Below are positions 27,713 through 62,874 of a stretch of 64,000 nucleotides of DNA, in pieces. This stretch comes from Candidatus Bathyarchaeota archaeon (GTDB lineage Archaea > Thermoproteota > Bathyarchaeia > Bathyarchaeales > Bathycorpusculaceae), in assembly GCA_026014615.1 (NCBI GenBank), contig JAOZHZ010000014.1:1-64000 (forward strand). Direction: 5' to 3'. The notes below the pieces were generated by a model. It ran no database searches. It was not told the DNA's origin and saw only the letters and a list, made by a program, of their open reading frames with translations. The translations under genes were made by a program, and so were the position numbers. Position 1 is the stretch's first letter, and each line of letters starts with the position of its first letter.

Positions 27713-29098
27713 TTAATCGGGGCGTCTTTTTGTCAGCTCAATGCCTGAATTTCTTTTCACTTTGATGACCACCACAATTAAGCTGGTACTGAGGGCAACT
27801 GTCAAAATCAACGCTAAAACGGTTAGTTCAGGTATGGCTGGCGAGGACCCTGCAGGCGAAGGAGTAGAAACTGGGGAAAGGGTGGGTACGGGTGAAGGAG
27901 GAACAAACCCGCTGGGCATTGGACGCGTACCCAAAACTAAGGGTACATCCATTTCTTGGTTGTCCCGTAGTACAGTGACCGTTATGGTTTCACCAGGTAA
28001 AGTGTTTTGTGCAAGATACGACGACATAACATCAGAGTTAACGATACGAACATCATCTATCTCGATTATTACGTCACCGCCTGCCAATATAGTAACGCCG
28101 CTTACGGTAACCTGTGTTGTACCCCCCTAAGACCAGCATCATCTGCGGGACCACCACTCGTAACTTGCTGAAGCAAAACACCATCTGTAACATCCAAGTC
28201 CAGCCGAGTAGCAAGGTCATACGTCATGTCCACGCTGGTTATGCCCAAATAAGAATGCTGCGTGTACGTGCCCGTGTTAATCAAGTCAGCTATTTCCCGC
28301 AGAATAGTATCCGAAGGCATAGCAAAACCAACCCCCTGAGAACCCGAAATACCCGTCGTGTTAATCCCAACCACTTGACCTTCACTATTAAGCAGGGGAC
28401 CACCGGAATTGCCGGGGTTTATAGAAGCGTCTGTTTGGATAACGTTTGAGATAGGATAGTTGCCTGTCGTGGTTTCTGTTATGGTTCGCCCTAACTGGCT
28501 AACTATACCCGTTGTTATTGAACCTGACAAACCAAACGGACTGCCCACCGCAGCCACAAAATCCCCCAACACTCAAAGAAGAGGAACTAACTAGCTCCAA
28601 CGGCTGAAATTCTTCAGCAGGAGCATCCGCAGACAGGACGGCAAGGTCAGCATACGGGTCAGAGCCCAAAACAGTGGCGGCGTACCCGTTACCATTTCTG
28701 AAAGTTACACTGATGTTAACGGCGTTGCTTACCACATGGTAGTTTGTGATTACAACCATGCGTCCGTCAAAGTCGTAGACAAAACCGGACCCCTGAACCG
28801 AAGTGTAAGACGGCCCAAACCCCGTTGACGAAGGCTGCACGTCAGTAATAACCACAACAGAGTTCCGCACATCATCGTAAAGCTGAGAAATCGAAATCTC
28901 TTCTGTGACTTGAGGCTGCACAGCAACTTCTTGGCTGCTTTGTGCATAAACATCGGATACCCCTGTCAGAGCAGTAAAAGTCAAAATTGCAAACAGAACA
29001 AAAACCACACTGTACCGAACACGCGGTCTTTTGAGAACTTGGTTCCCTAAGGAAGGTTTCTGATTAAAAGAAGAGAACATTTTGCTTTCTTCCGACAC
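27713..29098 (-). CDS. HtrA/DegP-like membrane serine protease, two frameshifts
   Basis: Three consecutive minus-strand frames make one protein of about 461 residues. The N-terminus (29098 on) has a membrane helix, then trypsin-fold motifs with His (VITNYHVVSN) and Asp (DPYADLAVL). The middle frame (to 28102) has the catalytic Ser in NPGNSGGPLL and the start of a PDZ domain. The last frame (to 27713) completes the PDZ, a Pro/Ser/Thr-rich stretch and a C-terminal membrane helix with basic end. The breaks lie at a run of five C (28563-28567, one base too many) and a run of six C (28122-28127, one base too few). The two offset each other, which suggests sequencing indels rather than decay. Confidence 0.85.
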
Positions 29099-29626: not shown

Positions 29627-29822
29627 CTTTTTCTCTTCATTTCAGACATAACAGGGCGGGAGGTTTGCTGTTTGAGAAAAGTTTTGTTTTATCATGTTGC
29701 AGTCACATATTTTTAATTTCTCCCTTATGCACCGTCTAGTGGGGTAGGTAGGATTTTGCCATACGCCGCTTTAGATAGTCAGGTTACGTTAGCTGCCTTT
29801 TTGTTAGAGTGGAGGTTTATGG

Positions 29823-32002
29823 ATGAGGATATCTGAGGTTAAAGAGGGAAACTGGATTATAGGGGCAGGCGGCGCGGGAGTTGCAATAGCCGCTGAAGTT
29901 TCAGCTCGGCTTAGAGAATTGACCGACAGCAGAGAAAACGTGAGGGTGGACGCTTTTGATATGTCAGGGGACTCTATTTCTGAGGCGTTGCGAAATGACC
30001 TGCTGGCGCGAAACGAGTCTTTTCAACCCATCGGCATTGACAGGTACAGAGCGAATACCCAAGGGTAGCCAGAGACCTCGGAATTTTTTCTGAAGAAGAC
30101 GTAGGCTTTGCGGAATTGAGCAACACCATCAGCGGGGAAGGCGCTCGCAGAGACCGCCGAAAAGCCATGGTGTACATGAGGCACCCGCGGATTTGGGACC
30201 AATTTTACGGGAGAATAACTGAGGGCTGCAGGTTCTTCCGAGACTACTTCAACTACACATTGAGCGATTCAGCAAAAGTGCCTACGGTGAACGTGGTTTT
30301 TGTTTCCAGTGCAGGCGGCGGATTTGGCAGTGGAGTAATCAACGAGCTGTCAAAAATGACCAAGAAAGGACTTGAAGACCGCGAATTAAGCGTTCGACAG
30401 TGGCTTATTCTTGTGGGCGCCCCCAGAAACATCGACCTTGCCGACAAGGAGTTGCTGCATTCGCAGCTCAACGAGTTTTTTCTGCTCAGAGACGTGCTTT
30501 TTTTGCAGTCAAGAAACAACAATAACCACACAGAAGTTGACCCCAACGGCAGAACCCTCACTTCTGGCCCCTACTATAACGCCGTGTACGTTTACCCCTT
30601 AATGGAGATGAGCCCCAGCGAATACAAACGCACTGACCAACACATCAGAGATTTTATTCTTTCAAAGATTCTTCTTCCCGCAGAGTTATATCAGGGTGGA
30701 AGCACCAGAGTCATGCCCCTTGAAAACCTTGACAACGCCATCCGACAGGCAGAACTGAACTATTGTAGAGGAGAACGATTCAGTTTCGGCAGTTTTCAGG
30801 TTTGTCACCTTTCGGTTCCCATCATCAGTTTGGTGAAGTGGAACGAGCTAAAAGACCGAGAACGAGCAATCGAAAGGCTACTGGAGGAAGACAGCGAAAC
30901 AGCGGAACTTATTAAAAAAAGAACTGAGGAAATGGCTTCCGCCGACTATATGAACGTCGAAATAAAGGATATCGAGTCGTGGCTGTCCGCACTCAAATCT
31001 GATACGGGTAACAAGATTGCGCCGTTGAAAGAGGCGGTTGCTGAAGTAATCGCGGGTTTACAATTTAAGCTGAACCAGAGCAGGCACAATTACGAAGCTG
31101 TAAACTCTGAAAAAGCAAGATACGACGACGAAATCCAAAAGGCCAGAGAACAGCTGGCACACAAAAACGAACTGAACTTCATAGGTAAACGTAGCCTACG
31201 CAGAGCCATCGAGAATTACCAAGCCATCCTTAGACCACTGCAGGACGATTTGATGGAGAAAAAGGAGCAACTTAACAAACTGCAGACATTAATAAATAAG
31301 TTTATCGAAATCCGCGACAAAATCGGAATAGAGCATGACCAACTTAAAACGGAGTTATCGACGCTTAGGGAGAAACTTTACAATCTCCAGCAGGTGCTTG
31401 AAAGAACGCAGAGCCCTAGCGGACTGGCGGGTTTTCAGTTGCCGTTCAAAGAAGATGAGTTGAGCAGGTTTCGTGAAATCTTTTGGGTGCCGGGGCTGCG
31501 GAAAATTGACCAGTTACCGCTATCAGATATTGGCATGAAGGTTTACGGTGAAAATAGGTTTCTAAATATAGTTAATGCTGCGTTTAGGAAAGCGGCTGAT
31601 GCCCCAATTTACGTGGACTTCATTAACTCAGGGGATGGTGGACCTAAGAAGTATCCTGTGCAGATGGTTAACTTGGTTTCAGGGGAAGCCAACAACTTAG
31701 AGTATCTGCAGAGCGTGTTCCAAGCGGAGTTGGGGCTGCAAGGTTCAGGGGAGTACGGGGTCGGCTGGTACATTGCTCAAGCTGAAAACTTGGGTTCCAG
31801 CATTTACCTCGCGATTGAGTTTGATGGCATTCCTCCTACCCAAATCAAGGACCTACGGAAACTGGAAGAGCTCTATAACTCGCTTAGGGACCGCGTCCAA
31901 AACGGACAATGTTACCCGCTGTCAACGGCTATTTCGCTTGTGAACCCGATTCAGTCGCCGATAAAGGAGATTGGCCCGCATGTTAATTTTCCTAATCCTT
32001 GA
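29823..32002 (+). CDS. Tubulin/FtsZ-superfamily-like protein with coiled-coil insert, one frameshift
   Basis: Two overlapping frames give one product of about 726 residues. The first (ATG 29823 to TAG 30066-30068) has the Rossmann glycine loop WIIGAGGAGVAIA, like the FtsZ G1 loop. The second begins before 30116 and has SSAGGGFGSGVINEL, matching the tubulin signature GGGTGSG with Phe for Thr. A missing base between 30041 and 30066 (short runs of G or C) joins them as DRYRANT..ARDLGIFSEEDVG. A long coiled coil follows (about 31090-31420, Lys/Glu/Gln-rich heptads), then a C-terminal alpha/beta domain. It resembles the bacterial 'tubulin-like' (PF13809) group more than FtsZ. The partner vWA gene overlaps its end by 23 nt. 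GTP binding is inferred. Confidence 0.7.
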
Positions 32003-32594
32003 CTGCTCCCGCTCCATGAACGACAAGCTTTACGGGGAACACAAAATAGACACCGCAAAAAAGGCGTTAACCAGATTCTTAAAAAGTAGAGAAGGCTTGG
32101 ACGCTAAAGACCAGATTGGGATGGCTGTGTATCCGTGGAGCAACATAACTGCGTACCTGCTGTACCCGCCGTTTTCTGCCAGCATAAAACCGTTCACCAG
32201 CAGAGTCGAAGACCTCAAAGCCAAAGGAGCCTCGCCGATGGGTGAAGGCTTAAAACTTGCCTTTGACACCGCAAAAAAATCCGCTAACGCCGAGTGCAAC
32301 ATGGTTTTGATTTACGATGGCGAATACAATCAGGGAATTGACCCCAACCAAGTCGCAGCAAATATTATAGCAAGCGGAATCGGGTTGGAAAAAATCTACA
32401 TCGGCGATGTGAACAAATCCGTTAACAACAAAGTGATAAGGGCTCTTGACGAAGCAACACATTCAAAAACGTCCATTGTTCAAACGGCTGAGGAGCTTTA
32501 CAAGGCTTTAACGGTGCAGCGCAAAAAACTCACCCCCGCCGATGGCATAGCAGATAGCAAGCAGCCATTTTATGCAAAGCCTTATTACCGCTGA
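31980..32594 (+). CDS. von Willebrand factor A domain protein
   Basis: 204 residues from ATG 31980 (a TTG at 31971 would add three). The MIDAS metal site is seen as LILDCSRSMND (DxSxS) and the threonine/serine loop as KGASPMGEGL, with a late Asp in LIYDGEYNQG. The domain fills nearly the whole chain, so it is a stand-alone adaptor. It overlaps the tubulin-like gene, so the two are coupled. In bacteria vWA genes recur beside tubulin-like genes, which supports a joint complex. Confidence 0.85.
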   Translation: MLIFLILDCSRSMNDKLYGEHKIDTAKKALTRFLKSREGLDAKDQIGMAVYPWSNITAYLLYPPFSASIKPFTSRVEDLKAKGASPMGEGLKLAFDTAKKSANAECNMVLIYDGEYNQGIDPNQVAANIIASGIGLEKIYIGDVNKSVNNKVIRALDEATHSKTSIVQTAEELYKALTVQRKKLTPADGIADSKQPFYAKPYYR

Positions 32595-32626: not shown

Positions 32627-33535
32627 TTGAAGTTTGGCACCTTCACCTTAGAACCAAAAAAAGCCGAGGGCTTCGACTTTCACCTTTTACGCGTCAAAAC
32701 CGAAATGGGTATCCGAATTCCTCCACAGCCTGACATGTGCAGCAACGTGGCGGTTTTCGGAGACAACGCAGCCATCCGCGAGCACCCCGACTGGCTCTCC
32801 CAATCCCCGCTGGGTCCCGCAAAGATTGGAAACAACAACTACAACATTTACTGGAACATCGTCTGCCAAACCCAACCAGAACACCGCGCCGAACAACTGG
32901 ACTACATGGAAGACGTAGATAGGCACTCGCTGGGGGTGTGGCCGAACAGTCAGTATTTTGCTGACCACGGACACTGCACCTGCCCCCGATGCACGGAGCG
33001 CTGGCAGAAAAGCGGTCTTGGCTGGGTGGAGTGGCGCAAAAAAGAAGTCACCGACTACATAGCTCAGATTAGGGAACGCACAAAAAAACCGTTGGTCATG
33101 TGTATTCAGCCTGACCCTGCAACCAGCCTCGAACGTTACGGCGTAGACTTTGACGACCTCGCGGAGCACTGTGACATGTTCAACGTGGTTATGTTCAGCA
33201 AAAGCTACGCGACCCCCTGGTACTTCGAGATGATTGCGCGCGCCTTCAAGAAGCTCCTCAAGAAGCCCTTCTACGTCAGCCTGTACGTTTACGGTCCAGG
33301 CGACAGCCCAAACGATGTACCCAGCCCAGCGGAGTTACTTACCGTCAGTACACGAATTGCAAGGGCAGGAGCCGACGGCTTCCTATTCCTTACCGAAAAG
33401 GCTATCCAAATTAGGGATTTTCAGAAAGCTGCAGTTGCCCAAGTTGATTTGCGGGAACGCCTCAGAACTTATGGTGGGCAGCCTGTGAAGGAATTCCTGG
33501 ATTATGTTGCGGGCTGGAAGAAAACGATTCAGTAA
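32627..33535 (+). CDS. Putative TIM-barrel protein, glycoside-hydrolase-like
   Basis: 302 residues from TTG 32627, 32 nt after the vWA gene. Alternating strands and helices suggest a beta/alpha barrel. The segment HCTCPRCTERW recalls the 'C.CP.C...F' loop found in some glycoside hydrolase barrels, with candidate acids following (GVDFDDLAEHCD, YGPGDSPND). No signal peptide is present. Family and substrate are not identified. It may belong to the tubulin-like operon or only be adjacent. Confidence 0.55.
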   Translation: MKFGTFTLEPKKAEGFDFHLLRVKTEMGIRIPPQPDMCSNVAVFGDNAAIREHPDWLSQSPLGPAKIGNNNYNIYWNIVCQTQPEHRAEQLDYMEDVDRHSLGVWPNSQYFADHGHCTCPRCTERWQKSGLGWVEWRKKEVTDYIAQIRERTKKPLVMCIQPDPATSLERYGVDFDDLAEHCDMFNVVMFSKSYATPWYFEMIARAFKKLLKKPFYVSLYVYGPGDSPNDVPSPAELLTVSTRIARAGADGFLFLTEKAIQIRDFQKAAVAQVDLRERLRTYGGQPVKEFLDYVAGWKKTIQ

Positions 33536-54762: not shown

Positions 54763-56115
54763 ATGCCTCGCTTGTGGTTTGATAAAGGTACGTTGCTGTT
54801 GAAGGGGGAAGTGGGGACCCCGTATGGTAGATGGGACCCGCGAAGTAGCTGTTACCGAATTAAAGCATGCCACTACAAGGATGTTCTAGATTACTTTAGG
54901 GAAAGCAATATTCGTGTTGAGGACGCGGTAGCTAATCCGCCGCCTCGTGAACAATTAAAAAGTAACATTGAGTTACGGTCGTACCAAAACAAGGCGTTAG
55001 ACAAATGGCAAGCCGCAGGCAACCGAGGAGTACTTGTTTTGCCTACAGCTGCTGGAAAAACATTCATCGCACTAAAAGCAATTGACCTACTCAAATTGCA
55101 GACTTTGATAGTTGTCCCAACTTTAGACCTGCTTGATCAATGGAAAAAACGCGTGCGGGAATGCCTTAGCATCGAAGCGGGGGTGGTAGGCGGCGGCGAA
55201 AACACCGTACGAATGGTCACAGTTTCAACTTATGATTCTGCGTATTCTCAGGCGCCACAGTTGGGAAACAAGTTTTTGCTGCTAATTTTCGACGAAGTGC
55301 ATCACTTGGCTTCGCCGGGTTACATGCAGATTGCGGAAATGCACATTGCGCCCCATCGTATGGGGTTAACGGCTACCTACGAGAGAAGCGACCAGAGACA
55401 TACACTTCTTCCCCTGCTGATTGGTGACCCCGTTTACTCTGTTTCCGTTGAAGAACTCACAGCCAAAAAGCACCTCTCAGACTACACGTATGAGAAAGCA
55501 GCGGTAAAGTTAACTACGGAAGAACAGCAAACGTACGACACTGAGATGGCAACTTTCAGGAACTATCTCGCTGAACGACGGATTGTCCTAAAAACGCCGG
55601 CTGATTTTCAACGGTTCATCATGACAACGGGCAGAGACCCCAAGGCTAGAGAAGCGCTTCTTGCAAGAAACAAAGCATTAAAAGTTGCCATTAACTCCGA
55701 AGCAAAACTGGACCTTCTGGCGGAAAAACTTGAAGAATACAAAAACGAGAAGATACTGATTTTCACGTTGTACAATGATTTGGTCTACACTGTTAGTAAA
55801 CGTTTTCTGATACCTGCGGTTACACATCAAACGCCCCGAGAAGAGCGACGGGAAATAATGGCTAACTTTGAACAAGGCAAATACAAAGTAATTGTTACAT
55901 CTCAGGTTTTAGACGAGGGAGTCGACGTCCCCGACGCGTCAGTTGGTCTAGTCCTTGGGGGAACAGGTAGCAAACGGGAATACGTGCAACGATTGGGACG
56001 GCTTCTTAGAAAAAGAAAGGGCAAAACCGCCAAACTGGTGGAAATTATCTCCAAGGAAACTGTTGAAGTTGGCATCAGTCGTAGGCGGCACCAAAAAGCA
56101 GGAGTTGCCCCATAG
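54763..56115 (+). CDS. xpb: Archaeal XPB-like DNA helicase
   Basis: 450 residues. An N-terminal damage-recognition-like domain (1-75) precedes the SF2 core: Walker A LPTAAGKTF, VVPTLDLLDQW, DEVHH box, 'MGLTATYERSD', then 'LIFTLYNDLVYTVSKRF', 'VTSQVLDEGVDVPDASVGLVLG' and 'RLGRLLRKRKGKTA' of helicase domain 2. The gene runs directly into bax1 with no gap, the classic archaeal XPB-Bax1 pair of nucleotide excision repair. Confidence 0.93.
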   Translation: MPRLWFDKGTLLLKGEVGTPYGRWDPRSSCYRIKACHYKDVLDYFRESNIRVEDAVANPPPREQLKSNIELRSYQNKALDKWQAAGNRGVLVLPTAAGKTFIALKAIDLLKLQTLIVVPTLDLLDQWKKRVRECLSIEAGVVGGGENTVRMVTVSTYDSAYSQAPQLGNKFLLLIFDEVHHLASPGYMQIAEMHIAPHRMGLTATYERSDQRHTLLPLLIGDPVYSVSVEELTAKKHLSDYTYEKAAVKLTTEEQQTYDTEMATFRNYLAERRIVLKTPADFQRFIMTTGRDPKAREALLARNKALKVAINSEAKLDLLAEKLEEYKNEKILIFTLYNDLVYTVSKRFLIPAVTHQTPREERREIMANFEQGKYKVIVTSQVLDEGVDVPDASVGLVLGGTGSKREYVQRLGRLLRKRKGKTAKLVEIISKETVEVGISRRRHQKAGVAP

Positions 56116-57684
56116 TTGCTTCCCAGCAGTCTACTCGTGGTGTATAAGCGGAAGGGGAAGATTCAGCCCCGTTACGCAAAACTTTCCTCTGAAAACCTTA
56201 CGGTCACAAACCGTCTTATCAAAGCCTACACGGGGGGCGTTGGTGAAAAGAAAAAGGTCCTGAAAACGTTTGTTACGGACTTAGAAAATCCAGGCTTTGA
56301 GTATCGGTTTGTTAGAGCGTTAGCTTTGTTGCTTGACCGAAGGGGCGTTTTTGTTTGCAGCAGCAAACTTGATCCTGCGGTTTTGAGGAGGAAAATTTTT
56401 GAAGCTGCAGAAGAATTTGGGTTGCCGGTGTCACCTGAAAAGCGGCAGCAAGTTCTTGAGTTTGTGGCTTCCAAAACAGGGCTGACAGCTGAACTTATTG
56501 AGGGGCAAATGTACGCGGATTTAGACTCCGAGTTAATTCTTACCAAAGTTAATGCGCCGTCAGCGTTGGATTTGCTCCGACAGTACAATCTCAGTTTGGC
56601 GCAGACACTTCTTTTTGACTGCACCGAGCTGACTTTCGAAGCTTCGGGAAATTGGCAGAACTTGTTTTATGCTGTTAAGAAGCTGGGGCTTATCTACGAC
56701 GTTTCTCGTGATTGTGAAGACGTTTTTTGGGTGAAGATAGATGGACCCGCCAGCCTCTTTAAACTCACAAAACGGTACGGAATCAACATTGCCAAGTTAC
56801 TGCCCCAAATCATCTCTAATCACGACTGGACTATAACTGCGAAGATATTGTGGAAGTACACGAATGAAGTATGTACATTTGCGATGGAACGCATAAAACA
56901 CAGTCCACTGCTGCCTAAGCCTAATTTGCGGCAGGTAACTTATGATAGTGCTGTTGAGGAGAGTTTTGCTTCACAGTTTAGAGCTTTAGAGTCTGGCTGG
57001 GTGTTGAAGCGGGAGCCTGAACCGGTTTTGGCGGGCAACTACGTTATTGTGCCTGATTTTTCGCTTGAAAGAGCGGGGCTTAAGGTCTATTTAGAAGTTG
57101 TTGGGTTCTGGACTGAGGAATATCTGCGGCGTAAAGCAGAAAAACTCAAGCAAGTGGACGTTAAAATGATTCTCGCAGTTGACGAGGCGCTATCGTGTGA
57201 GAAGCTCACCGCTTTGGAGAAGCGTCCGCAGCTGCACTTCATTTATTATCGAAATAAAATCTCGTTGGCACCTATTCTGCGTTATTTGAAGGCAGCGTTT
57301 GAAGAGGTTAAAACAAAAGAAATCAAATTGTTACAGGACCTGCCAGTTAAGTTTACCGAGCCAATTGTTTCTTACGCAGAATTCGCTGACAGAGTAGGGG
57401 TTTCTGTCGAAGCCGTACAGGCAGTGCTCACAGCTAATGTGCCCTCAGGTTACCTACCCTTGTCCAACAGTTTGGTAAGTGAAAAAAAACTTCAGCAAAT
57501 CCACATGGTACTAAATGAAGCTCGGAAGCAGTCAGGAAAACTAACTCTTAGCCAAGCAACACAGCTAATTGAAGCCACAGGACTACACGATGTATCCTGC
57601 GCATTAACTGCCCTTAACTACAAAATAGTCTGGCGCGGAATAAACAGCGAACAAGCAGAAATCGTCCCCTCAAAAAACAAATAG
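56116..57684 (+). CDS. bax1: Bax1 (DUF790) structure-specific nuclease
   Basis: 522 residues from TTG 56116, the base after the xpb stop. The N-terminal part 'YKRKGKIQPRYAKL..LTVTNRLIKAY' is typical for DUF790. A nuclease site is visible near residue 315-345: 'YVIVPDFSLERAGLKVYLEVVG', the D...E-V PD-(D/E)xK-like set. In known archaea Bax1 binds XPB and cuts bubble or overhang DNA, acting as an XPG-like partner. The pairing makes the call secure. Confidence 0.9.
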   Translation: MLPSSLLVVYKRKGKIQPRYAKLSSENLTVTNRLIKAYTGGVGEKKKVLKTFVTDLENPGFEYRFVRALALLLDRRGVFVCSSKLDPAVLRRKIFEAAEEFGLPVSPEKRQQVLEFVASKTGLTAELIEGQMYADLDSELILTKVNAPSALDLLRQYNLSLAQTLLFDCTELTFEASGNWQNLFYAVKKLGLIYDVSRDCEDVFWVKIDGPASLFKLTKRYGINIAKLLPQIISNHDWTITAKILWKYTNEVCTFAMERIKHSPLLPKPNLRQVTYDSAVEESFASQFRALESGWVLKREPEPVLAGNYVIVPDFSLERAGLKVYLEVVGFWTEEYLRRKAEKLKQVDVKMILAVDEALSCEKLTALEKRPQLHFIYYRNKISLAPILRYLKAAFEEVKTKEIKLLQDLPVKFTEPIVSYAEFADRVGVSVEAVQAVLTANVPSGYLPLSNSLVSEKKLQQIHMVLNEARKQSGKLTLSQATQLIEATGLHDVSCALTALNYKIVWRGINSEQAEIVPSKNK

Positions 57685-60934: not shown

Positions 60935-61822
60935 GTGTATTTTCTTTCTGATATCGAACAGAAGCAGCGCCTCTATCAGCTTCTGTCAACCGCAAGAGAA
61001 GTAGGCGTAAGTAAAGAGTTAAGAGGCTGGAACTGGCATCAACCCCCACTCAAACCCTATTTTGACAATGTCAAGCTTCCCATGTACCAGGTAAGCTCAA
61101 AGTATTGTCCCACAAACCGTGACGTATATCTGCGGAACATCGAAAAGAAGTATTGCGCTCCAAATTCGCGGATGGCTTTAGGTAAACTATTCCATGGAGT
61201 AGTTAGTGATTGTTTGCAGAGTTTTCGGCAGCGACAAAACCTGAGTTTTGATGCTTGGTGGCAAAAGATCAGGTGGCAGGAGATTTCGGAGAAACCTGAA
61301 AACGTCATTGACCGCTGCAGGCAAGTCTGGGATTTCGTGCAGAAAATGTGTGAAGCCCAGTTAGTGGAGCTTTCTTGCAGCCAGCCCTATTCGACGCAGA
61401 TGGATTTGATGAGCACGGCTGTCCCGTTTTTAGTTGAGCATAAGCTTTCGGGTGAGTTGCTTGGTTTAAGTGACATTCTCAGTGTGGATTGTTTTGATTA
61501 CTTGCGGACAATCATGTTTGACCTCAAAGTAACCAGCTTCAAAGAAGAGTGGCATAGGCTTTACTCGCTTGGGTATGCTCTTGTGTTTGAAAGCATCCAT
61601 GAAGTGCCTGTGGATATCTGTTGCACGGTCTACTTGAGTGTTGAAAATGGCAAGATAAGTGTGCAGAAGGATTTGTTTTTTGCTAATGATGAGCTTCGGC
61701 AGTGGTGGCTTGAAGAAAGAGACAAAAAACTGGAGATAGTAGCAGAAAGAAGAGACCCTGGCAAGCCCGAACGTTCACAATGTAAAGAGTACTGTCAATA
61801 TTACAACGTCTGCTATGGATAG
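60935..61822 (+). CDS. csa1: CRISPR-associated Cas4-family protein, Csa1 type
   Basis: 295 residues from GTG 60935, the usual Csa1 length (ordinary Cas4 is near 180). Residues near 58-63 (YCPTNRDVYLR) and a C-terminal cluster (CKEYCQYYNVC) give the four cysteines that bind [4Fe-4S]. The nuclease core appears as 'LLGLSDILSV' and 'MFDLKVTSFKEEW' (D..D-x-K). It trims pre-spacers for integration and indicates the type I-A lineage. Confidence 0.88.
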   Translation: MYFLSDIEQKQRLYQLLSTAREVGVSKELRGWNWHQPPLKPYFDNVKLPMYQVSSKYCPTNRDVYLRNIEKKYCAPNSRMALGKLFHGVVSDCLQSFRQRQNLSFDAWWQKIRWQEISEKPENVIDRCRQVWDFVQKMCEAQLVELSCSQPYSTQMDLMSTAVPFLVEHKLSGELLGLSDILSVDCFDYLRTIMFDLKVTSFKEEWHRLYSLGYALVFESIHEVPVDICCTVYLSVENGKISVQKDLFFANDELRQWWLEERDKKLEIVAERRDPGKPERSQCKEYCQYYNVCYG

Positions 61823-61839
61823 AACGGGTTGATGTTGTT

Positions 61840-62874
61840 TTGAATGTTTTTTTGGATGATTTTGGCATCTTCTTGGGGCGAAAACGAAATCGTTTCAGTA
61901 TAAAGAAAGGTGGCGAAGTAAAGGAAATTGTGGCTGACGACGTTGATTCAATAATTTGCTGCTCTTCTGGCGTAGCTTTTTCTGCAAGTGCCCTAGATTT
62001 GGCGGTTGAGAACCATATTCAGGTGGTCTTTGCAAGGTATCGTGGGTGGCCTTATGCTGTTTTGATGCCTGCCTCTTTAACTGGCTCTGTTAGGGCCAGA
62101 AGAGAACAATTCCTTGCCTACAACGACGGGCGCGGCGTAGTTCTAGCTAAGAAGTTCATTGCTGGAAAGCTGGTGAATCAGGCGAATTTTTTGAAGCTGA
62201 TGGCAAAGAATAGGCGACAGACCAGTCCCAAATTGGCTGAAAAACTGTACGGCTCAGCCAAACTCATTGATGACGCCAACGACCGAATCAACAGAGAACA
62301 GGGACGTAACATTGATGAGAAGCGCCAGCAAATCATGAACTTGGAAGCGGAAGCTGCACGGTACTATTGGGACTGCGTGCGGCAGATTCTGCCTCCTGAA
62401 CTTGGCTTTACCGGACGGATAACTCGTGGCGCCACTGACCCGTTTAATGCGATGCTAAATTTTGGTTACCAGACGGTTCTGTTTCCTGAAGTTTGGAAAG
62501 CCGTCAGCTACGCTGGCTTGGACTTTTATGCGGGATATTTGCATGCCGACCGTTCAGGGAAGCCTTCGCTTGTGCTGGATATGATGGAGGAGTTTCGCCA
62601 GCAACTCGTAGACCGAACCTTAATTGGGTTAATTACCAAGAATGTCATAAAGCCTAATGAAATCATCGCCACCGAATCGGTTGAGGAGGGTCGGGTTCTT
62701 AGCAAAGAAGTCATCAAAGTGCTGTTGACCAGCCTTCAGGAGCGCTTGGATAGCAACGTGATGTTTAACGGTCAGAAGGGGTCGTTGAAGAGTTTTATTC
62801 ATTTGCAGCCTCGGTGTATGGTTCGTTTCCTGCTCAAAGAAACTGAGTACGTGCCTTTCTGTTTGGGGTGGTAG
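61840..62874 (+). CDS. cas1: Cas1 integrase
   Basis: 344 residues from a TTG start at 61840 with no better alternative. Active-site residues Glu169 (LEAEAARYYW), His235 (YLHADRSGKPSLVLD) and Glu250 (MMEEF) are all present. It integrates new spacers with Cas2 at the leader end. It is 17 nt after csa1 and overlaps the cas2 region. Confidence 0.95.
   Translation: MNVFLDDFGIFLGRKRNRFSIKKGGEVKEIVADDVDSIICCSSGVAFSASALDLAVENHIQVVFARYRGWPYAVLMPASLTGSVRARREQFLAYNDGRGVVLAKKFIAGKLVNQANFLKLMAKNRRQTSPKLAEKLYGSAKLIDDANDRINREQGRNIDEKRQQIMNLEAEAARYYWDCVRQILPPELGFTGRITRGATDPFNAMLNFGYQTVLFPEVWKAVSYAGLDFYAGYLHADRSGKPSLVLDMMEEFRQQLVDRTLIGLITKNVIKPNEIIATESVEEGRVLSKEVIKVLLTSLQERLDSNVMFNGQKGSLKSFIHLQPRCMVRFLLKETEYVPFCLGW

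Follow-up and report, generated by a model that had tools for sequence, protein, structure and literature searches.

A tubulin-like gene and its vWA neighbor

The window, by which we mean the whole 64,000-nucleotide stretch that was analyzed, is a contig stretch of genome G000 (2.63 Mb, 29 contigs, 88.8% complete, 7.4% contamination), which ESCRT-III-like genes and further genes recognized by eye mark as archaeal. Its forward strand carries, at 29823 to 32002, a tubulin-like gene that is spread over two reading frames, the single break lying near 30,050. Of the two frames, the first contains the loop GAGGAG and runs into a stop codon at 30066-30068. The second contains SSAGGGFGSG and is open until 32002. 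In G006, a genome of the same genus (one contig), the gene is unbroken and comprises 725 codons. Its 725-aa product was 89 to 91% identical to the short piece from the window and 78 to 79% identical to the long one. This agrees with the sequence-only reading, which had proposed a protein of approximately 726 residues with both loops. Values of pN/pS between the two genomes, reported raw because dS is near saturation, were 0.088 (first piece) and 0.167 (second piece), and we therefore consider the gene to be real and under purifying selection. Approximately 105 to 140 nt 5' of the gene, an AT-rich block (29684 to 29717, +) could be aligned with the upstream DNA of G006, in which it is kept. It is a candidate promoter region.

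Along the encoded protein, GAGGAG (29862 to 29879, +) occupies the T1 position, and alignment of the G006 ortholog with the Pfam family PF13809 begins at residue 12, profile position 2. A Gly/Arg motif, GEGARRDRRKA (30134 to 30166, +), aligns with a conserved Gly/Arg motif of other Tubulin_2 groups; its counterpart is formed by conserved columns in a group of Tubulin_2 proteins of approximately 890 aa, and it lined up in the other set alignments too. At the T4 position lies GGGFGSG (30314 to 30334, +), with Phe replacing Thr. A predicted coiled-coil region follows, with approximate limits of 30842 and 31414 (+). Several coiled-coil families matched this middle part, all below their cut-offs, and long helices appeared in a low-confidence structural model, in line with the large coiled-coil insert that had been proposed. 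It is also the least conserved part of the protein (67.5% identity between the G000 and G006 orthologs). The C-terminal domain (31427 to 31999, +) is 80% identical between the orthologs, gave no Pfam match, and was assigned no fold.

The second gene (31980 to 32594, +) encodes a stand-alone vWA protein. Its DxSxS motif, DCSRS, is located at the protein start and is invariant in G000 and G006. In Pfam, the protein matched VWA_2 (E = 2.7e-12, 47.7 bits against a cut-off of 27) and VWA (E = 1.5e-10, 42 bits against 23.8), and its best NCBIfam match was the cobaltochelatase-type model TIGR02442 (1.3e-9), far below the cut-off of that model. The G006 ortholog is 72% identical. With a pN/pS of 0.33, the gene appears to be under looser constraint than the tubulin-like gene, but the selection is still purifying. 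Its start is the ATG at 31980, with a TTG at 31971 also possible, and its first 23 nt overlap the end of the tubulin-like gene, stop codon included, so that the reported overlap and the vWA pairing both stood. A candidate ribosome-binding site, AAAGGAG (31963 to 31969, +), is identical in G006. The stretch TAAAGGAGATT 5' of the vWA gene is the same in the two genomes, and its conservation, together with the 23-nt overlap, suggests that the vWA gene is expressed by coupled translation. The start of the G006 vWA gene is uncertain because the position of the window ATG reads ACG (L004 8836-8838, −); AAAGGAG is kept there, and the ACG represents either a non-standard start or an error.

A TIM-barrel-like gene (32627 to 33535, +) adjoins the pair in G000, where no catalase-like gene was recognized by eye, and it had been regarded as part of the set. 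It gave no Pfam match over a cut-off. Its family of approximately 300-aa proteins was matched in 20 of 60 genomes searched and four times in each of the seven genomes of the genus, five of which are without the pair. In G006, a catalase-like gene (by eye) separates it from the pair. In G002 and G004, catalase-like, TIM-barrel-like, dehydrogenase-like, and FKBP-like genes are kept (by eye) without the pair. The three-gene set was therefore rejected, and nothing beyond shared synteny links the TIM-barrel-like gene to the pair. Elsewhere in the window, a helicase-like ORF and the ORF after it (54763 to 57684, +) resemble, by eye, an XPB helicase with its nuclease partner. Near the window end, two ORFs (60935 to 62874, +) resemble Cas4 and Cas1 by eye.

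Kinship to Tubulin_2

In an hmmscan search, PF13809 (Tubulin_2) was the sole Pfam family that matched the G006 ortholog with an E value below 0.05. The match (E = 2.7e-4) aligned residues 12 to 285 with profile positions 2 to 298 of 356, and its score of 20.7 bits lies below Pfam's curated cut-off of 27. It is colinear from T1 past T4, with both Gly-rich loops at the loop positions of the family. The long window piece alone matched PF13809 with an E value of 0.0019 (18 bits), and the short piece alone gave only sub-cut-off NAD-binding matches (0.12 in Pfam and 0.045 in NCBIfam). The exact family signature is GGGTG(S/T)G and the tubulin-like protein has GGGFGSG; because of this and the sub-cut-off score, we do not count it among the curated members of PF13809.

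A profile of the N-terminal domain, built from the two orthologs, was tested against archaeal Tubulin_2 proteins grouped into three sets. The GGGFGSG set scored 55.4 (E = 2.5e-7; best of 40 shuffles, 22.0; reversed, 19.3), the set with N-terminal extensions scored 37.7 (E = 1.4e-4; best of 40 shuffles, 26.4; reversed, 16.5), and the ~890-aa set scored 29.4 (E = 0.003; best of 40 shuffles, 24.1; reversed, 20.6). None of the 40 shuffles reached the real score in any of these comparisons. Full-length comparisons yielded E values of 2.4e-6, 3.8e-4, and 0.008, respectively. It should be noted that only the GGGFGSG comparison is strong by itself and that the ~890-aa match is weak.

The GGGFGSG set consists of L073 (genome G527) and L075 (genome G307), from other archaea of the phylum, which were the nearest proteins by profile and carry the same Phe in T4. 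Both are longer than the 725-aa ortholog (981 and 921 aa, respectively), share 25% identity with each other, and matched PF13809 below the cut-off (E = 4e-5 and 2.9e-4). Each of the 22 loci examined contributed one loop-bearing protein. GGGTGSG is present in 17 of these, GGGSGSG in one, and GGGFGSG in four, namely, the two orthologs, L073, and L075. The Phe that had been called unusual is therefore a recurring variant rather than a one-off error; it is real but not unique.

Likeness to FtsZ, CetZ, and tubulin is confined to a short segment around T4. PF00091 (Tubulin) gave no significant match to the ortholog (E = 0.099, 13.4 bits of 33). When the N-terminal part was compared with 25 FtsZ-like sequences from within the phylum, which were recognized by motif and not by family search (25 of 26 loci fetched, one being without a usable frame), it beat 60 of 60 shuffles, over 36 columns around T4 only. 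Unlike those proteins, the tubulin-like protein has a coiled coil, and in the comparisons run its C-terminal part is unlike FtsZ_C. In comparisons of the C-terminal part with the ~890-aa and GGGFGSG groups, 49 and 36 of 60 shuffles, respectively, were as good as the real sequence. An FtsZ-like succession H9-S8-H10-S9-S10, traced by eye in the C-terminal part, was rejected, as 18 of 60 profile shuffles and 113 of 300 semi-global shuffles were as good. The same applies to LENLDNA in the middle part as a T7 candidate, also picked by eye (10 of 60 and 87 of 300, respectively). AlphaFold was run without an alignment on the window piece minus its first ~72 residues and returned a pLDDT of 36.8, a confidence too low for a fold. 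A second such run on the window sequence gave 33.9, with the C-terminal domain modeled as low-confidence mixed alpha/beta. Among solved structures, there was no meaningful match (three matches, E = 0.48 to 0.68).

On the strength of the PF13809 match of the ortholog and the shuffle-controlled profile comparisons, the tubulin-like protein is very probably a diverged FtsZl1/Tubulin_2 relative within the tubulin superfamily, as had been suggested from its loops.

Known relatives, distribution, and cellular setting

FtsZl1, which corresponds to PF13809, was described in bacteria and archaea by Makarova and Koonin in 2010 (PMC2875224). According to that report, it is among the most diverged tubulin relatives and combines an N-terminal FtsZ-like domain, an extended coiled coil, and a mostly helical C-terminal domain, with T6-H7 not identifiable. 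The majority of its operons contain a vWA gene, and a kinase, GTPase, or OmpA gene is frequent in them without being universal (PMC2875224). Membrane remodeling was proposed from gene neighborhoods (PMC2875224), which in the papers cited here are the sole basis on which roles have been assigned to such proteins. Kaur et al. (2020) found tubulin and vWA genes in part of the DO-GTPase/GAP1 systems, which they interpreted as conflict systems and which occur in a few archaea (PMC7159879). A 2023 survey regards Tubulin_2 proteins as a group that is divergent and has its own history (PMC9871819). Such proteins are present in Borg elements as well (PMC9879509). Judged by title and the start of the abstract, no experimental study of a tubulin-like/vWA pair was recognized among the matches listed in searches of the open-licence PMC literature.

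The pair resembles FtsZl1 in its FtsZ-like N-terminal domain with T1 and T4, the coiled coil and C-terminal domain that follow, and the vWA gene in the operon. It differs in that the tubulin-like protein scores below the Pfam cut-off and has Phe in T4 and in that the vWA protein is short and stands alone. No GTPase, kinase, or OmpA gene was recognized by eye beside the pair in the ORF lists of G000 and G006. Since a GTPase domain, a coiled coil, and a vWA neighbor were all described in 2010 (PMC2875224), the kind of system is already known, and the suggestion of an undescribed one was only partly right. What is different here is the sub-cut-off sequence, the two-gene unit, the T4 Phe, the occurrence in 2 of 256 genomes, and the lack of a detected FtsZ in the genus.

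Tubulin_2 proteins of approximately 890 aa from the same class (e.g., L058) belong to the same superfamily, and their loops line up with those of the tubulin-like protein. In contrast to it, they have GGGTGSG and a different neighbor group without a detected vWA gene, and their C-terminal match is at chance level. This type has 34 strong places in 34 of the 256 class genomes, a few of them cut by contig ends. Its loci (L058 8593-16127, L059-L065, L070-L072, L076, and L077) share a conserved neighbor group of a probable secreted protein, an opposite-strand gene, and a large probable membrane protein. Across the 22 loci examined, 17 tubulin-like ORFs clustered together, and neighbor clusters of 15, 15, and 13 ORFs were obtained; one representative of each of these neighbor clusters had no Pfam match at an E value of 0.05. 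When the focal vWA protein was compared by phmmer with 361 filtered ORFs, each 90 aa or longer, only the pair itself was recovered. Two further Tubulin_2 proteins, at L066 7552-10707 (−) and L067 8807-11857 (+), have hydrophobic N-terminal segments (by eye), and each lies beside a protein of approximately 700 to 770 aa, that of L067 being without a Pfam match. A hydrophobic N-terminal segment has been reported for Sulfolobus SSO1376 (PMC2875224).

Of the 256 class genomes searched, 2, including that of the window, yielded an ortholog of the tubulin-like gene, and a mixed N-domain profile again recovered 2 of 256. Both genomes, G000 and G006, belong to one genus of seven genomes. In each of them, the vWA gene overlaps the tubulin-like gene, so that the neighbor is conserved in 2 of 2 genomes, both of this one genus. 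In a 398-genome sample of the phylum, G000 gave a strong match and four others gave weak, local ones (E = 0.001 to 0.008). The pair had no match at an E value of 1e-8 in the stretches of G002 and G004 around the TIM-barrel-like gene. The corresponding stretches of G001, G003, and G005 share little beyond that gene, and the pair is absent from them. Searches with short peptide patterns, which have limited reach, revealed no relatives in genome contigs or viral contigs; none was found in plasmids or phages by tblastn, and PHROGs gave no match. A six-frame PF13809 search missed the G006 gene, though its protein is matched by hmmscan, and equally diverged proteins may therefore be missed elsewhere. 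The pair looks accessory, being distributed in the manner of an optional two-gene unit, and it is unlikely to be the division machine because only two of the seven genomes of the genus carry the tubulin-like gene.

In all seven genomes of the genus, PF00091 found no FtsZ over the cut-off, whereas the control was matched in 13 of 14 known genomes. The sole sub-cut-off PF00091 match in the genus was the ~900-aa Tubulin_2 protein of G004 (4.2e-5). Snf7/ESCRT-III profiles scored over the cut-off in all seven; in the control, Sulfolobus acidocaldarius, they matched below it. Given ESCRT-III-like proteins in each genome and no FtsZ over the cut-off, division probably proceeds by ESCRT-III. The tubulin-like protein was the only tubulin-superfamily protein found in G000 by the searches run, and it may be the only one of G000 and G006, with the caveat that the six-frame PF13809 search missed the G006 gene.

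Proposed role and alternatives

We propose, with a probability of approximately 0.55, that the two genes form a pared-down and diverged version of the FtsZl1 (Tubulin_2)/vWA system, in which an accessory GTP-binding assembly protein would act with a co-translated vWA adaptor. The proposal starts from what was observed directly, namely, two overlapping genes under purifying selection, the order in which the loops occur, and the profile kinship. The architecture and vWA linkage published for FtsZl1 (PMC2875224) also speak for it, as do the ESCRT-III-like proteins found throughout the genus together with no FtsZ over the cut-off. The tubulin-like protein would probably bind GTP via the T1 and T4 loops and form filaments or smaller oligomers, in which the long coiled coil would serve as an arm or spacer. 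The vWA protein, presumably made by coupled translation, would probably serve as an adaptor, binding via its metal site and linking the assembly to a client, such as a membrane, a protein complex, or an invading element. Counted against the proposal are the sub-cut-off PF13809 score, the weak ~890-aa match, the T4 loop without Thr, the chance-level C-terminal comparisons, the low-confidence AlphaFold models, the frame break in the window copy, the ACG in G006, and the lack of a recognized GTPase or kinase partner. The tubulin-like/vWA linkage, moreover, is known from two genomes that belong to a single genus.

Two alternatives concern whether there is a functional tubulin relative at all. The frame break near 30,050 would fit a decaying pseudogene with nothing functional in the organism, a reading that we consider improbable. 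The reading frame stays open for the 649 codons past the break, where pN/pS is 0.167, and that of the vWA gene is open too. Moreover, an HtrA-type protease-like gene (by eye; 27713 to 29098, −) within 1 to 2 kb is itself broken up into three frames; this suggests that this part of the assembly contains indel errors, perhaps several. The break in the window copy is either recent or an assembly error, and we lean towards the latter. Still less probable is that the protein is unrelated to tubulins and that its Gly-rich loops reflect chance or another nucleotide-binding fold. The NAD-binding matches of the short piece, the sub-cut-off PF13809 score, and the low-confidence AlphaFold models would accord with this, but a colinear PF13809 match and real scores that no shuffle reached in three comparisons speak against it.

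Two further alternatives accept the kinship and assign another role, and both seem rather unlikely to us. The pair could be a defense or conflict module, a diverged DO-GTPase/tubulin/vWA system in which assembly upon sensing of an invader is the effector step. Like part of the DO-GTPase/GAP1 systems (PMC7159879), it has a coiled-coil tubulin-like gene that adjoins a vWA gene. Its distribution is patchy within the genus, G002 and G004 being without it in the corresponding stretches, and the gene of its nearest relative, L073, precedes one with a sub-cut-off DO-GTPase2 match (1.2e-4). A DxSxS neighbor of L073 was considered as a vWA protein and was confirmed neither by Pfam nor by profile comparison. 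G000 and G006 gave no match to PF19993 (DO-GTPase2), in a search that is not sensitive since it also missed the gene of G527. In PADLOC, the vWA protein had no match, and the tubulin-like protein was matched only within its coiled coil, by LmuB, which was judged an artifact. Alternatively, the protein could form a membrane-remodeling or cell-shape filament, as was proposed for FtsZl1 at the family level from gene neighborhoods (PMC2875224), and its standing as the only tubulin-superfamily protein found in G000 would be compatible with such a filament. However, G000 and G006 share no membrane protein next to the pair, neither protein of the pair has an obvious membrane segment (by eye), and absence from five of seven genomes of the genus argues against a basic role in shape.

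The preferred reading of an assembly protein with a vWA adaptor can be extended by analogy. Chelatase- or MoxR-type vWA proteins usually partner AAA+ proteins. It is conceivable on this ground, if doubtful, that a tubulin-like GTPase assembly replaces the AAA+ motor. The pair would then be a minimal, optional two-gene device, and its tubulin-like member, from a Phe-loop branch with a coiled-coil arm, would be the sole tubulin-superfamily protein of an FtsZ-less, ESCRT-III-bearing archaeon.

Cut-off-based surveys under-count the Phe-loop relatives, since these fall below the Pfam cut-off. The pair reduces the machine proposed for FtsZl1 to two genes, one of which encodes a small vWA protein, in a setting where no FtsZ was detected. 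It is therefore a convenient case in which questions of GTP binding, polymerization, and the vWA adaptor may be addressed.
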